Of a DNA stretch of 64,000 nucleotides, positions 40,832 through 51,909 are shown one piece after another (position 1 is the stretch's first letter; each line of letters starts with the position of its first letter). Source of the stretch: Hydrogenimonas thermophila (GTDB taxonomy: Bacteria; Campylobacterota; Campylobacteria; Campylobacterales; Hydrogenimonadaceae); NCBI RefSeq assembly GCF_900115615.1, contig NZ_FOXB01000002.1, positions 1 to 64,000 on the forward strand. The letters run 5' to 3'. A program made the translations under genes and the position numbers. The notes beneath the pieces are model-generated. The model was not told the origin of the DNA. It did not search any database and saw only the letters and a program-made list of their open reading frames with translations.

Positions 40832-40845
40832 TTGATAAAAATCAA
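40832..40845 (+). promoter_or_regulatory. Fnr-type operator of the nap operon
   Basis: TTGAT (40832-40836), AAAA, ATCAA (40841-40845) is a perfect Fnr consensus palindrome. Its centre lies 29.5 bases before the -10-like TAAAAT at 40868, which puts it at about -41.5, the class II activator position. Confidence 0.88.
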
Positions 40846-40867
40846 GTAGAATTCAGCTGAACTCTTG

Positions 40868-40873
40868 TAAAAT
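40868..40873 (+). promoter_or_regulatory. -10 element of the nap promoter
   Basis: TAAAAT at 40868-40873 is correctly placed below the Fnr box, and no -35 is needed at a class II site. Transcription would begin near 40880, a few bases before the large stem-loop. Confidence 0.65.
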
Positions 40874-40884
40874 TAGTTTGCGTT

Positions 40885-40955
40885 GGAATTATAGTGCCTA
40901 GATTCAAGAAAAATTTAATATTGAGCTTTTTTTGAATCTGGGCACTTATAATTCC
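40885..40955 (+). promoter_or_regulatory. 71-nt near-perfect stem-loop in the napA leader
   Basis: GGAATTATA (40885-40893) pairs with TATAATTCC (40947-40955), and GTGCCTAGATTCAA (40894-40907) with TTGAATCTGGGCAC (40932-40945), with one G-U pair and one bulged T. An A/T run extends the stem to about 27 pairs with a loop near 40913-40926. It sits between the predicted start site and the napA ribosome site (40977-40982). The T-run lies inside the stem, not after it, so this is not a terminator. Confidence 0.85.
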
Positions 40956-40987
40956 AGAAAATTGTGCAAATTTATTAGGAGGTAAAA

Positions 40988-43792
40988 ATGTCATCTATGT
41001 CACGACGTGACTTCCTGAAGAGTGCTGCGGCTGCTACTGCTGCAAGTGCTGTTGGGATGTCAGTTCCTACTGAAGTAGAAGCAAAAGCCAGTAAAGCTGA
41101 GAGCGGATGGCGATGGGATAAAGCCGTATGCCGTTTCTGTGGTACTGGATGTGGTATTATGGTTGCAACAAAAGATGGAAAAATTGTTGCAGTAAAAGGT
41201 GACCCAGCAGCACCAGTAAATAGAGGTCTTAACTGTATTAAAGGTTATTTTAACGCAAAAATTATGTATGGTGCTGACCGCCTTACCACTCCACTTCTAA
41301 GAATGGATGAAAAAGGTAACTTCGATAAAAAAGGAAAGTTCCGTCCAGTTAGTTGGAAAAGAGCTTTCGATGAGATGGAGCGTGCTATTCGTAAAGCACT
41401 AAAAGAGGGTGGTCCTGAAGCTGTTGCAGTATTTGGTTCTGGACAGTACACTATTCAAGAGGGTTATGCTGCTGCAAAAATGATGAAAGCAGGTTTTAGA
41501 TCTAACGCTATTGATCCAAATGCTCGCCACTGTATGGCATCTGCTGTTGTTGGATTCTTCCAAACATTCGGTATCGATGAGCCGTCTGGATGTTATGATG
41601 ACATTGAAATTACCGATACTATTGTAACCTGGGGTGCCAATATGGCAGAGATGCACCCAATTCTTTGGGCTCGTGTAACAGACCGAAAACTCTCTGACCC
41701 TGATAGAGTTAAAGTTGTTAACATCTCTACATATAGACACCGATGTTCTGACCTAGCAGATATGGAAATTATTTTCCGCCCAGGTTCAGATCTAGCAATG
41801 TGGAACTATCTTGCACATGAAATTGTTTACAACTACCCTGAAGTAATTGATTGGGATTTTGTTAAGAAGCATACAATTTTTGCTACAGGGTTTGTTGAAA
41901 CAGGTTACGGTATGAGAATGCCAGATGAAGCCAAAAAACTTGGTTATAGCGATAAAGAACTTGAAACAATTAAAGAAGAAGCAAGCCATACTGTAACTGA
42001 AAGAGAAGCTCCTGGTTTAGCACCACTTGGATACAAAGCTGGTGATAAAATGGAGATGAAACATAGAGGTCATGCTCTTGGTCACTGGGAAATCACTTTT
42101 GAAGAGTTTAAAAAAGGTTTAGAGCCTTATACATTAGATTATGTAGCAAAAGTTGCAAAAGGTGATCCTGAAGAAAGCATTGAAAGCTTTAAGAAAAAAC
42201 TTGTAGCACTTCGTGATCTTTACATCGATAAGAGCCGCAAAATGGTTAGCTTCTGGACCATGGGTATGAACCAGCACTATCGAGGTTCTTGGGTTAATGA
42301 GCAATCTTACATGGTTCACTTCCTTCTTGGAAAACAAGCAAAACCAGGTATGGGTGCATTCTCTCTAACTGGACAGCCTTCAGCTTGTGGTACTGCTCGT
42401 GAAGTTGGTACATTTACTCACCGCTTGCCAGCAGACATGCTTGTTAAAATTCCTAAACATAGAAAAATTGCTGAAAAAATCTGGAAACTTCCAGAAGGTA
42501 CAATCAACCCTGTTGGGTACCAGCATATTATGAATATCCATCGACAAATAGAAGATGGTAAAATTAAATTTGCATGGGTAAACGTATGTAACCCTTACCA
42601 TGACACTGCAAATGCAAACCACTGGATTAAAGCAGCTCGTGAAAAAGATTGCTTTATCGTAACATCTGACGGATACCCTGGAATCTCTGCAAAAGTTTCT
42701 GACCTTGTTCTTCCATCTGCAATGATTTATGAAAAATGGGGATCATACGGTAATGCAGAGCGACGTACACAGCACTGGAGACAGCAAGTTCTTCCTGTTG
42801 GTGATGCAATGAGTGATACTTGGCAGTGGATAGAACTTTCTAAACGCTTTACAGTTAAAGACCTTTGGGGTGAATGGACTATCAAAGGTGGTAAAAAACT
42901 TCCAAATGTCATTGAAAAAGCTAAAGCGATGGGATATAAAGAAGATACTACAATGTTCGAAATCCTTTTCGCTAATGATTACTACAGAAGCTTTAAAGCT
43001 GATGATCCGATTATGGAAGACTTTGACAATACTGAAGTATTTGGTGACAGCCGAAATGTTATCGGTAGTGATGGAAAGCCTTGGAAAGGGTATGGATTCT
43101 TTATTCAAAAAGCTCTTTGGGAAGAGTATCGCAAGTTTGGTGCTGGTCACGGTCATGACTTAGCAGATTTTGATACTTACCATAGAGTACGCGGACTTCG
43201 CTGGCCTGTTGTTGATGGTAAAGATACTCCATGGCGATTTAATGTTAAATATGATCCATATGCTCGTAAGCATGCTAAACCAGGTGAAGAGTTTGCATTC
43301 TATGGACCAGCTCTTAAAACAATTAAGCGTGGTGATCTTAAAAAGATTGATCCAGCAAAAGGTAAAATTAACCTTGCAAACAAAGCTAAAATCTTCTTCA
43401 GGCCTTACATGGATCCAACAGAACAGCCAGATAAAGAGTATGATACTTGGCTATGTACAGGTCGTGTAATTGAACACTGGCACAGTGGTACTATGACAAT
43501 GCGCGTTCCTGAACTTTTCCGTGCAATGCCTGAAGCATTCTGCTATATGAACCCTAAAGATGCAAAAGCAAAAGGTCTTAAAGAGGGCGATATGGTATGG
43601 ATCGAAAGCCGCCGTGGTAAAGTTAAAGCACACGTTAAAACTCGTGGTCGTAACAGACCTCCTCGTGGTTTGGTTTTCGTGCCTTGGTTTGATGAGCGTG
43701 TATTCATTAACAAAGTTTGTCTTGATCACACTTGCCCAATGTCAAAACAGACAGACTATAAAAAGTGTGCAGTTAAAATCTATAAAGCATAA
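40988..43792 (+). CDS. napA: Periplasmic nitrate reductase, catalytic subunit NapA
   Basis: The 934-residue protein has a Tat signal (SRRDFLKS), a [4Fe-4S] site at Cys48, Cys51, Cys55 and Cys83 (CRFCGTGC, then NCIKGY), and the Mo-ligating Cys182 in [12 protein letters not shown], which separates it from the Asp-ligated type II enzyme at 5642. It reduces nitrate to nitrite in the periplasm using bis-MGD. The length fits the epsilon-type NapA. AGGAGG lies 5 bases before the ATG. Control is by the Fnr-type box and leader stem-loop upstream. Confidence 0.97.
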
Positions 43793-47997: not shown

Positions 47998-48092
47998 ACT
48001 AAAAAATACCTTCTAATAACCTTAAATAAATCCAAAAATTACTTTAAAGAATCCTTTATTATGAAAATTGGACTTATGAAGTTTTGTTATTA

Positions 48093-48110
48093 AGTTTAAT
48101 TTATTAAACT
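48093..48110 (+). promoter_or_regulatory. Crp/Fnr-like inverted repeat upstream of the cytochrome pair
   Basis: AGTTTAA (48093-48099), TTTA, TTAAACT (48104-48110) is a perfect palindrome with the 4-base spacer usual for Crp/Fnr regulators, but with TTTAA rather than TTGAT halves. TATATT at 48127-48132 may be the -10 element. The binding protein is not known. Confidence 0.5.
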
Positions 48111-48155
48111 AGTAAGCTCAATTTAATATATTTCTAGATATACTTTCGTTTATTT

Positions 48156-48222
48156 AGGAACAATTAAGTTCCTTTGCTTCAATTCTTTAGTGAAGAAGCA
48201 AAAACCAAATTTTAAGTTTGGT
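48156..48222 (+). other. Three tandem hairpins in the leader of the cytochrome operon
   Basis: AGGAAC/GTTCCT (48156-48161 with 48168-48173), TTGCTTC/GAAGCAA (48074+100: 48174-48180 with 48195-48201) and ACCAAA/TTTGGT (48204-48209 with 48217-48222) follow one another directly before the ribosome site. Such a string could stabilise the mRNA or control translation of the cytochrome genes. Confidence 0.6.
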
Positions 48223-48246
48223 TAAAACTAAAGTCAGGGGTTGCCA

Positions 48247-48804
48247 ATGAAGCAGGAGAAGAAGAGCTTATCAAAAATGGCTCTATTCACAATCATCTTG
48301 ATAGGAATAGTTGTGGGCGCAGTTGGCTCATTTACAACAGCAGTTATGGTAGAGAAAACCAGCGGGAAAGAGTTCTGTACCCAGTGTCATACTATGCAGC
48401 CCATGGCTGACTCCTATCTGGCTGATATACATGGGGGCAAAAATAAAGAGGGTCTGACAGCAAAATGTGTTGATTGTCACTTACCTCATGATTCTCTTAT
48501 GGGGTATTTGGTAGAGAAGGCTAAAACAGGCATACATGATGTTTGGGCTGAATTTACATATGACAAAAGCAAAATTGATTGGCAAGAGAAGCGCAAGCAT
48601 GCCAAACATTTTGTATTTGATAGTGGATGTCTACATTGTCATACTAATCTTAAAGATGCAACAATGGGCACACCTAAAGGATTTATAGCTCATAAGGCTT
48701 ATTTCCTTGATAAAAAGAAAAAGTGTGTCGAGTGTCATGAAAATGTAGGTCACCATAGTTTAGGTGATTACATTTCTCAAATCCAAACTAAGGAGAAAAA
48801 GTGA
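48247..48804 (+). CDS. NapC/NirT/NrfH-family tetraheme cytochrome c
   Basis: The 185-residue protein has one N-terminal membrane anchor (about 10-32) and four CxxCH motifs (CTQCH, CVDCH, CLHCH, CVECH). This is the NrfH-type menaquinol dehydrogenase that hands electrons to a periplasmic cytochrome. The next gene encodes the octaheme partner, so it serves that enzyme. ATG 48247 (AGGGG 6 bases upstream) is preferred to the TTG at 48241. The mRNA leader has three hairpins. Confidence 0.92.
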   Translation: MKQEKKSLSKMALFTIILIGIVVGAVGSFTTAVMVEKTSGKEFCTQCHTMQPMADSYLADIHGGKNKEGLTAKCVDCHLPHDSLMGYLVEKAKTGIHDVWAEFTYDKSKIDWQEKRKHAKHFVFDSGCLHCHTNLKDATMGTPKGFIAHKAYFLDKKKKCVECHENVGHHSLGDYISQIQTKEKK

Positions 48805-48830
48805 ATCCAACACCAAAAAAGGAGGGATTA

Positions 48831-50207
48831 ATGCGGTTTAAGTCATTGATGATCGCTACTTTGCTGGCATCTGCATTTAGCATATCTGCTAATGCATCAG
48901 CAAAAGCGACTGAACATGTTGGGGATATCAGCCCTAAAAACTTGAAAGTTACTCGTGGAATGACAGCAGAAGCAAAACGCTGTGTTGAGTGTCACGCTGA
49001 AAAAACACCTGGTCATGTAAATGATTGGAAACAGAGTCGACACGGACATGTTGGAGTATCTTGTATTGACTGTCACGGTGTCAAAAAAGATAACCCAATG
49101 GCAGCTCAAAACTGTCCAGGAGTAAAAGGAACAAAAACATACGTTTCTGTACTTGTAAGTCCAAAAACTTGTGAAAAATGTCACCCTAATGAGGTTGAAG
49201 AGTTTCAACATAGTGGTCATGCTCGTGGTGCACTTCAAGTTCGTTCAAAAGCTGGTATGCAAGCTTTAATGAAGAAAATTGAAGGTCGTGATCACCCAAA
49301 ATTCAAAAACTCACCTGAAGCTACTGGATGTATGCAGTGCCATGGTTCAATCATTGAGCTTGATGCAAACAAACAACCAACTGCTGAAACTTGGCCAAAC
49401 TATGGTATTGGTAATGTATACCCTGATGGTGGTGTAGGTAACTGTAAATCTTGCCACAGTGGACACAAGTTCTCTATTGAAGAGGCTCGTAAACCAGCTG
49501 CTTGTGCAAGTTGTCACTTAGGACCTGACCATCCAGATATTGAGATTTACAACAACTCTATGCATGGACATATCTATAATACAGAGGGTAATACTTGGAA
49601 ATATGACTCTGCTCCAGATGCTTGGGAACCAGGTGATTATCGTGCGCCAACTTGTGCTACTTGTCATATGAGTGGTATTGGTGATCTTAGAACTACTCAC
49701 AATGTTAGTCGACGACTTAAGTGGAATATCTGGGCTCCAATTTCTAAACTTAGAGATGGTGGATATGACACAGCTGTAAGTACTTATGAGAAAACTGGAA
49801 AAATTACTAAAGGTAATCCTTTAGCTGGACACCCAGATGGACATAAAGCTGGTCGTGCAGAGATGGAAAAAGTATGTAAGTCTTGCCATACAACACTTCA
49901 TACTAAAAACTTCTTCAAAATGGCTGATCAACATGTAGAACTTTACAATGTATATGCTAAAGAAGCTAAAGGTATGATCGATGAGTTGACCAAAAAAGGT
50001 CTAATGATGAAAGATAAGTGGTCTGATCCTGCATTTAAAGTATGGTATCATCTATGGCACCATCAAGGACGACGTATGAGACAAGGTGCACTTATGGGAG
50101 CTCCTGACTATGCTCACTGGCATGGTGTATTCGAACTTCAGCAAGATATTCGTGAGTTGAGAGCAATCTACAACCAAAGAATTAAAAGCGGAAAAATAGA
50201 GCACTAA
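48831..50207 (+). CDS. hao: Octaheme cytochrome c of the epsilon hydroxylamine-oxidoreductase (HAO) type
   Basis: The 458-residue protein has a signal peptide (MRFKSLMIATLLASAFSISANA) and eight CxxCH motifs in order: CVECH, CIDCH, CEKCH, CMQCH, CKSCH, CASCH, CATCH, CKSCH. The C-terminal WHHQGRRMRQGALMGAPDYAHWHG resembles the HAO core. In Campylobacterota these proteins are paired with an NrfH-like donor and act as nitrite reductases, replacing NrfA; that role is known for the family and inferred here. ATG 48831 has AGGAGGG before it. A GTG at 48801, also with a ribosome site, would add ten residues. Confidence 0.9.
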   Translation: MRFKSLMIATLLASAFSISANASAKATEHVGDISPKNLKVTRGMTAEAKRCVECHAEKTPGHVNDWKQSRHGHVGVSCIDCHGVKKDNPMAAQNCPGVKGTKTYVSVLVSPKTCEKCHPNEVEEFQHSGHARGALQVRSKAGMQALMKKIEGRDHPKFKNSPEATGCMQCHGSIIELDANKQPTAETWPNYGIGNVYPDGGVGNCKSCHSGHKFSIEEARKPAACASCHLGPDHPDIEIYNNSMHGHIYNTEGNTWKYDSAPDAWEPGDYRAPTCATCHMSGIGDLRTTHNVSRRLKWNIWAPISKLRDGGYDTAVSTYEKTGKITKGNPLAGHPDGHKAGRAEMEKVCKSCHTTLHTKNFFKMADQHVELYNVYAKEAKGMIDELTKKGLMMKDKWSDPAFKVWYHLWHHQGRRMRQGALMGAPDYAHWHGVFELQQDIRELRAIYNQRIKSGKIEH

Positions 50208-50214
50208 TTAAAGT

Positions 50215-50242
50215 GATGAGAGGAATTAATTTTCCTCTCATC
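50215..50242 (+). terminator. Hairpin after the octaheme cytochrome gene
   Basis: GATGAGAGGAA (50215-50225) and TTCCTCTCATC (50232-50242) form a perfect 11-bp stem with a 6-base loop, 8 bases after the stop codon. The run after it is A/T-mixed without a strict T-tract. Confidence 0.75.
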
Positions 50243-50264
50243 AAATGATATAATAAAAGATTGA

Positions 50265-50293
50265 TATAACACCATTTAAAAAATGATGTTATA
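50265..50293. other. Second inverted repeat before the parvulin gene
   Basis: TATAACA (50265-50271) and TGTTATA (50287-50293) pair, and CATTT/AAATG extends the stem to 12 of 13 positions. It lies in the leader of the parvulin gene and may be an operator or a second transcript-end hairpin. Confidence 0.5.
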
Positions 50294-50339
50294 CCACTCT
50301 TTTAACTCTTGCAAAATTACTTTAAAAAAGGATATAAAG

Positions 50340-51246: not shown

Positions 51247-51909
51247 TTGAGCTCAAACATACCATTAATAAAAGGTATATTGAAAGATTTTTTCCTTTTC
51301 ACACATTTAGATGAGGAAAAACTTAACTCTTTAGTATCAATATCTAGTCTTGTAGAATATAAAAAAGAGAGTATTCTATTTTTTGAGGGAGAAGAGCCAA
51401 AATCCCTTATTATTCTTATTGATGGTATTTTAAAAGTTTATAAAACTGATTTAAAAGGTAATAAAGTAATTCTTCACAGATTTTACCCTGTAGACTTAAT
51501 TGCAGAGTTGGTAAATATTGAGCATATGAATTACCCTGCATCTGGAGAGTTTGAAACAGATGGAAAAGCTATTTTAATAAACTATAAAGAGTTTGAGAAA
51601 AAGTTTCTCAAAGATCCTGAAGTATCTTTTGCATTTATAAAATCTCTCTCAAAAAAGATTAAATATCTTGAAAATGTTATTGCTACAAATTTAGTAATGA
51701 ACTCTACAGCTCGAGTAGCAAAATTTATTTGTGAGCATGGTCATGAAATATCAAAATTAAAAAAAAGTATGATAGCAGCTGATCTTAATATGGCTCCTGA
51801 AACTCTTTCTAGAATTTTAAAAAAACTTTCAACTCTTAAATTGATAGAAAGAGAGAAAGATGAAATTATAATTCTTGATAAAGAAGGTCTTACAACATTC
51901 TACTTATAG
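51247..51909 (+). CDS. Crp/Fnr-family regulator without an Fe-S cysteine cluster
   Basis: The 220-residue protein has an N-terminal cyclic-nucleotide-type beta-roll (ILFFEGEEPKSLIILIDGILKVYK), a long dimerisation helix (about 125-150) and a C-terminal winged helix. In the recognition helix APETLSRILKKL, Glu185, Ser188 and Arg189 repeat the E-x2-S-R of Fnr, predicting TTGAT half-sites. The only cysteine is Cys162, so there is no Fnr-like 4Fe-4S sensor; heme-based NO sensing, as in DNR, or another ligand is possible. TTG 51247 is the start, with AAGGA before it. The perfect Fnr-type box at 40832 is the natural target. Confidence 0.88.
   Translation: MSSNIPLIKGILKDFFLFTHLDEEKLNSLVSISSLVEYKKESILFFEGEEPKSLIILIDGILKVYKTDLKGNKVILHRFYPVDLIAELVNIEHMNYPASGEFETDGKAILINYKEFEKKFLKDPEVSFAFIKSLSKKIKYLENVIATNLVMNSTARVAKFICEHGHEISKLKKSMIAADLNMAPETLSRILKKLSTLKLIEREKDEIIILDKEGLTTFYL

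Follow-up and report, generated by a model that had tools for sequence, protein, structure and literature searches.

The abundant ompA mRNA of Escherichia coli carries a stabilising stem at its extreme 5' end, and its Shine-Dalgarno (SD) sequence is free of this stem. The E. coli pnp leader has a long, near-perfect stem near its 5' end that is processed by RNase III, an enzyme that prefers roughly 22 bp. In Helicobacter pylori, the vacA mRNA is stabilised by a stem-loop at +4 to +30. Mirror mutations that restore the pairing also restore the half-life, so that pairing, not sequence, is responsible for stability; a route through RppH and RNase J is the hypothesis of that paper (PMC4843948). For napA itself, a TTGA-N6-TCAA site has been described in Nitrosophilus labii, 49 bases upstream of the predicted start of napA transcription, with a start-to-RBS distance of 37 (PMC11539149). 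According to a review, Campylobacterota encode no FNR orthologue, and in Wolinella these reductases are governed by NssA/B/C (PMC6682613). In the literature searched we found no paper on a nap leader hairpin, nor any report of post-transcriptional nap control in Campylobacterota.

We analysed a 64,000-nucleotide stretch of the Hydrogenimonas thermophila genome (contig NZ_FOXB01000002.1, positions 1 to 64,000; the window), in which a long hairpin lies between the napA promoter and the SD. As in vacA, from the same phylum, a stem-loop with conserved pairing is found within a few nucleotides of the (here predicted) +1, upstream of and separate from the RBS, in an organism with RNase J-type decay and without a recognised RNase E. 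The vacA stem is much shorter and weaker (about -8.8 kcal/mol) and belongs to a different gene and promoter; its stabilising effect is experimental, whereas we infer that of the Hydrogenimonas leader. The ompA stem is also shorter and acts in a decay system based on RNase E, and the Hydrogenimonas hairpin differs in being a genus-specific feature of napA. It resembles the pnp leader in its long stem near the predicted 5' end, and differs in that cleavage and autoregulation are known for pnp. N. labii has a similar box, but its start-to-RBS distance is too short for such a hairpin, whereas the stretch from +1 to the SD measures 97 nt in the H. thermophila source strain. Thus, the promoter is the norm for the class, and the hairpin an addition between promoter and RBS. 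The most likely function of the hairpin is of an already known kind. We hold with moderate confidence that a class II promoter dependent on a Crp/Fnr-family protein (probably Dnr/Nss) starts transcription at about G40880, and that the 5' hairpin most likely controls the lifetime of nap mRNA.

The nap locus and its promoter

The following features were identified at the start of the operon, together with a candidate regulator gene downstream:
40832-40845, plus strand: Crp/Fnr-family site TTGATAAAAATCAA, a perfect TTGAT-N4-ATCAA centred 41.5 bases before the predicted +1 (TTGAY-N4-ATCAA in 16/16 genus leaders)
40866-40873, plus strand: -10 element TGTAAAAT, with the hexamer TAAAAT at 40868-40873 (T(A/G)TA(A/G)AAT in 16/16 leaders)
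40880, plus strand: predicted transcription start, an invariant G, the seventh base after the -10 element
40988-43792, plus strand: napA, encoding the catalytic subunit of periplasmic nitrate reductase (Tat motif SRRDFLK)
51247-51909, plus strand: Dnr/Nss-like Crp-Fnr-family regulator with recognition helix E-TLSR, candidate activator of the promoter through a putative link to the box

The napA gene comes first in a cluster that fits napAGHBFLD in gene order and motifs, where the names beyond napA are suggested by the open reading frames. The encoded NapA shares 90-95% identity with its counterparts in named Hydrogenimonas MAGs and in Campylobacterales MAGs that cluster with these. The genus sample comprised 18 genomes (the source and 17 further Hydrogenimonas), 15 of which contain the napA 5' end. 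These provided 16 distinct leaders, as one MAG (G014) has two distinct napA 5' regions on contigs C28 and C90 (leaders L092 and L107), each with the hairpin; this represents either two copies or a strain mixture.

The box is centred at 40838.5, which is 41.5 bases from G40880. The palindrome TTGA-N6-TCAA occurs in all 16 leaders, and the box-to--10 spacing is 22 nt in every one of them, with zero indels. In the alignment of genus leaders (A1), column 1 is an invariant G at the predicted +1, 7 nt past the -10 element. A site about 41.5 bases before the putative start, combined with a -10 element at constant spacing, is the arrangement of class II Crp/Fnr-activated promoters, and the class II spacing proposed in the first-pass annotation is upheld. 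By itself the box is statistically unremarkable: the window contains one perfect copy for a chance expectation of 0.35, and at least one copy was found in 32 of 100 shuffles. Therefore, its weight derives from its position and its fixed spacing in relatives, not from rarity. A genome-wide search for the promoter pattern with two mismatches returned mostly noise.

Three Crp/Fnr proteins of the source genome (92 contigs) exceed the HTH_Crp_2 cut-off. Their NCBIfam Fnr scores are 26, 49 and 34 bits (cut-off 228), all three sequences lack an N-terminal cysteine cluster, and a cysteine-cluster Fnr orthologue was not found in the 92 contigs. One of the three is encoded close to the nap cluster, at 51247-51909, and its best match is Pseudomonas DNR (3dkw, 3.3e-14). 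The site had been called a perfect Fnr box. The perfect TTGAT-N4-ATCAA is indeed present, but this perfection is peculiar to the source strain (the box of relatives is TTGAC-N4-ATCAA), and judging from the protein sequences the regulator is probably of Dnr/Nss type rather than a cysteine-cluster Fnr. "Crp/Fnr-family (Nss/Dnr-type) box" would thus be the apter name.

Structure and conservation of the leader hairpin

Downstream of the predicted start we identified:
40885-40955, plus strand: leader hairpin with a 28-pair main stem, bulged U40946, a 4-pair top and loop 40918-40921 (indicated by fold, covariation, strand asymmetry and model matches)
40956-40976, plus strand: spacer AGAAA...GUGCAAAUUUAUU between hairpin and SD (18-21 nt in relatives)
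40977-40982, plus strand: SD sequence AGGAGG, identical in all leaders
41010-41016, plus strand: Tat-motif codons (ACUUCCU), predicted partner of the SD (beyond synonymous-codon expectation clearly in the source strain alone)

Folded alone, 40885-40955 forms 32 pairs with a minimum free energy of -37.1 kcal/mol: 28 pairs in the main stem and 4 atop a 1x1 mismatch, with two G-U pairs in each part. The earlier description of a long stem with one bulge thus stands, whereas its count of about 27 pairs with one G-U is replaced by 28 main-stem pairs and more G-U. The suggested folding of 40875-40990 yields -44.5 kcal/mol (z = -8.65 relative to dinucleotide shuffles). When 4406 sliding windows covering both strands of the 64 kb were compared by GC-corrected energy, 40862-40977 on the plus strand came out lowest. 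At the hairpin site the minus strand folds far less stably than the plus strand (-30.6 vs -45.7). The hairpin begins 5 nt from the predicted +1, and about 3-5 terminal nucleotides ahead of the stem are partly unpaired in the predicted fold. Directly 3' of the stem the sequence is AGAAAAUUGUGC and a U-tract is absent; the element is therefore not an attenuator.

The hairpin was found in all 15 genus genomes that contain the napA 5' end (16 distinct leaders). A covariance model detected none in the three genomes that lack this end, one of which is 99% complete and encodes a molybdoenzyme that matches NapA weakly, with nothing better. The first-pass annotation had let its case depend on conserved pairing in relatives and had proposed a search for compensatory changes in their napA leaders; pairing is present in all 16 leaders, as expected of a 5'-terminal stabilising stem-loop, and such changes were found. 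In A1 (15 rows, consensus of 27 pairs), two-sided changes occur at 9 of the 27 consensus pairs, compared with a shuffle mean of 4.4 (0/500 as high); since the rows share ancestry, such counts do not represent independent events. Paired cells amount to 95.8% vs 91.7% in shuffles (0/500 as high), and fall to about 56% or less in controls in which the partner was slid by one base.

The strand test is stronger than these pair counts. Genus leaders contain 68 G-U cells vs 5 A-C mismatch cells, and in 16/16 leaders the sense strand is better folded than the antisense strand. Thus, selection acts on the plus-strand nap mRNA leader rather than on a palindrome in the DNA or an antisense transcript, and an antisense or cruciform function is ruled out by the G-U to A-C asymmetry. 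The napA leader hairpin is confirmed as a real, conserved 5' RNA element.

Every one of the 16 leaders has 11 nt between the -10 element and the stem, with zero indels, whereas hairpin length ranges from 63 to 71 nt and the hairpin-to-SD distance from 18 to 21 nt. Therefore, the stem is locked to the predicted 5' end. Sequence is conserved as well: over the initial 20 nt of the 5' arm identity is 80%, compared with 51-54% in the promoter flanks, and the loop UUUAA is almost invariant. Mismatches or a bulge interrupt the stem in several lineages.

Only one full copy of the hairpin occurs in the source genome, and a repeated or mobile element was therefore rejected. Across the 18 genus genomes the covariance model matched the napA leader and no other gene. 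Nothing convincing was found outside the genus in 399 genomes of the order, a scan that was strictly filtered, took few candidates from each genome and may therefore miss weak relatives. The sole match from another genus (L134), a perfect hairpin and then T-rich sequence after an unrelated gene, is terminator-like and was rejected. Rfam, Moco riboswitch included, gave no match at the gathering threshold; at E up to 10 there were only miRNA-precursor look-alikes, far below the cut-off, and other noise.

Most of the other Campylobacterota tested have their box about 70-100 nt upstream of napA and a leader without a strong fold. The Hydrogenimonas box is 145-156 nt upstream of the gene, and the promoter is about 60-70 nt further upstream than those of other genera. 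Four napA leaders of the Sulfuricurvum group (L175, L176, L059 and L068) have their own strong hairpin (z about -5 to -6.7). It also lies between promoter and RBS, with unconvincing homology to the Hydrogenimonas element; in L175 and L176 the box is likewise pushed upstream, to -137 to -139. In a close relative (L177/L066) the hairpin is weak. An unfiltered model search for homology in the Sulfuricurvum and other leaders gave best E values of 0.016 (L040) and 0.16 (L176), which are unconvincing. From these sequence comparisons the Sulfuricurvum hairpin is probably independent of that of Hydrogenimonas, and since no homology was found the two may be convergent.

Possible roles of the hairpin

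Transcription of napA from the class II promoter by a Crp/Fnr-family activator would start at or near G40880, and the RNA, after some 5 nt at its 5' end, would fold into the long hairpin that selection maintains throughout Hydrogenimonas. The stem would be too near the 5' end for easy removal of pyrophosphate by RppH and would bar the 5'-to-3' entry of RNase J; the SD, 21 nt downstream, would stay free of the hairpin. The genome encodes RNase J (677 bits), an RppH-like Nudix protein (126 bits, cut-off 116) and RNase III, all over curated cut-offs, and its RNase E/G match is below cut-off. Because the stem is locked to the 5' end and vacA provides a precedent, stabilisation of the mRNA is the best reading, and by analogy it is plausible that the 5' stem slows RNA decay. 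Several points stand against this. In the predicted fold, the 3-5 partly unpaired 5' nucleotides may be sufficient for RppH. With about 28 pairs, the stem greatly exceeds the length that stabilisation needs and could be open to cleavage by RNase III, and the 5'-arm identity and near-invariant loop exceed the needs of a bare stem, which hints at recognition. In addition, a hairpin of any kind is missing from most napA leaders of Campylobacterota.

RNase III might instead cut the long stem soon after synthesis, so that the lifetime of nap mRNA would be RNase III-dependent and the mature 5' end would lie within or after the stem. The enzyme is encoded in the genome, the 28-pair main stem exceeds the roughly 22 bp it prefers (and the minimum of about 20 bp for an RNase III-processed leader), and pairing is kept along the entire stem. 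However, the stem is interrupted in several relatives by mismatches or a bulge, and RNase III would not need such strict anchoring to the 5' end. We consider this unlikely.

Recognition of the RNA is also doubtful. A protein, small RNA or ligand/metabolite could read the conserved 5' arm and loop (AAGAA...UUUAA, GAAA, GUGCAAA) and tune nap expression, with nitrate or molybdenum cofactor as example signals. This would account for sequence conservation beyond the pairing, which includes the unpaired loop and the 3' flank, and for the restriction to one gene in one genus. However, no Rfam family, the Moco riboswitch among them, was matched, neither a ligand pocket nor an alternative conformation is evident in one long hairpin, and the absence of a U-tract excludes an attenuator. 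If the hairpin were recognised in this way, it would be a cis-regulatory RNA new to Rfam, and nitrate respiration in Hydrogenimonas would be subject to a post-transcriptional control of which no nap operon is known to be an example.

The first-pass annotation had also suggested that the hairpin may gate translation, which would require the leader to hold the SD closed with the hairpin as part of a switch. In 16/16 leaders the predicted fold pairs most of the SD (0-18% left unpaired) with the Tat-motif codons GACUUCCU (40977-41017), and in the AT-rich source strain this closure exceeds 99% of synonymous versions (1% are as closed). However, the remaining 15 leaders do not depart from synonymous expectation in their closure (fractions 0.115-0.445), the local fold around the SD has a z of only -1.8, and in silico removal of the hairpin, with the window's own codons as common downstream context, left predicted SD accessibility unchanged. 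The suggestion is thus not supported: the predicted partner of the SD is the first napA codons instead, the hairpin leaves the SD uncovered in these models, and we regard a translational switch as very unlikely. The codon CTG within the SD-pairing stretch has no other use in source-strain napA beyond codon 21.

An inverted repeat functioning as DNA (a protein-binding palindrome, or a decayed relic of an insertion or mobile element) would fit the insert-like displacement of the promoter, but the single genomic copy speaks against this, the least probable explanation, and the asymmetry that marks selection on plus-strand RNA rather than DNA symmetry largely refutes it.

With stabilisation as the preferred reading, the covariation-backed, genus-wide hairpin on the mRNA of the main nitrate reductase is a defined target for the study of how respiratory mRNAs are retained or disposed of in vent bacteria without recognised RNase E. 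The comparison of hairpin-bearing Hydrogenimonas with relatives that have a similar, hairpin-free promoter amounts to a natural experiment.

Other structured leaders and gene ends were found downstream of the nap genes. A multihaem cytochrome operon (48241-50207, NapC/NirT-like and Hao-like) has a strongly structured leader (48090-48245, z -4.0) containing the 18-bp palindrome AGTTTAATTTATTAAACT, which could be an Nss-type site. Two hairpins, GATGAGAGGAATTAATTTTCCTCTCATC and AACACCATTTAAAAAATGATGTT, lie 3' of the Hao-like gene at 50207-50310. They overlap the listed start of the open reading frame at 50283, the true start of which is probably further downstream.
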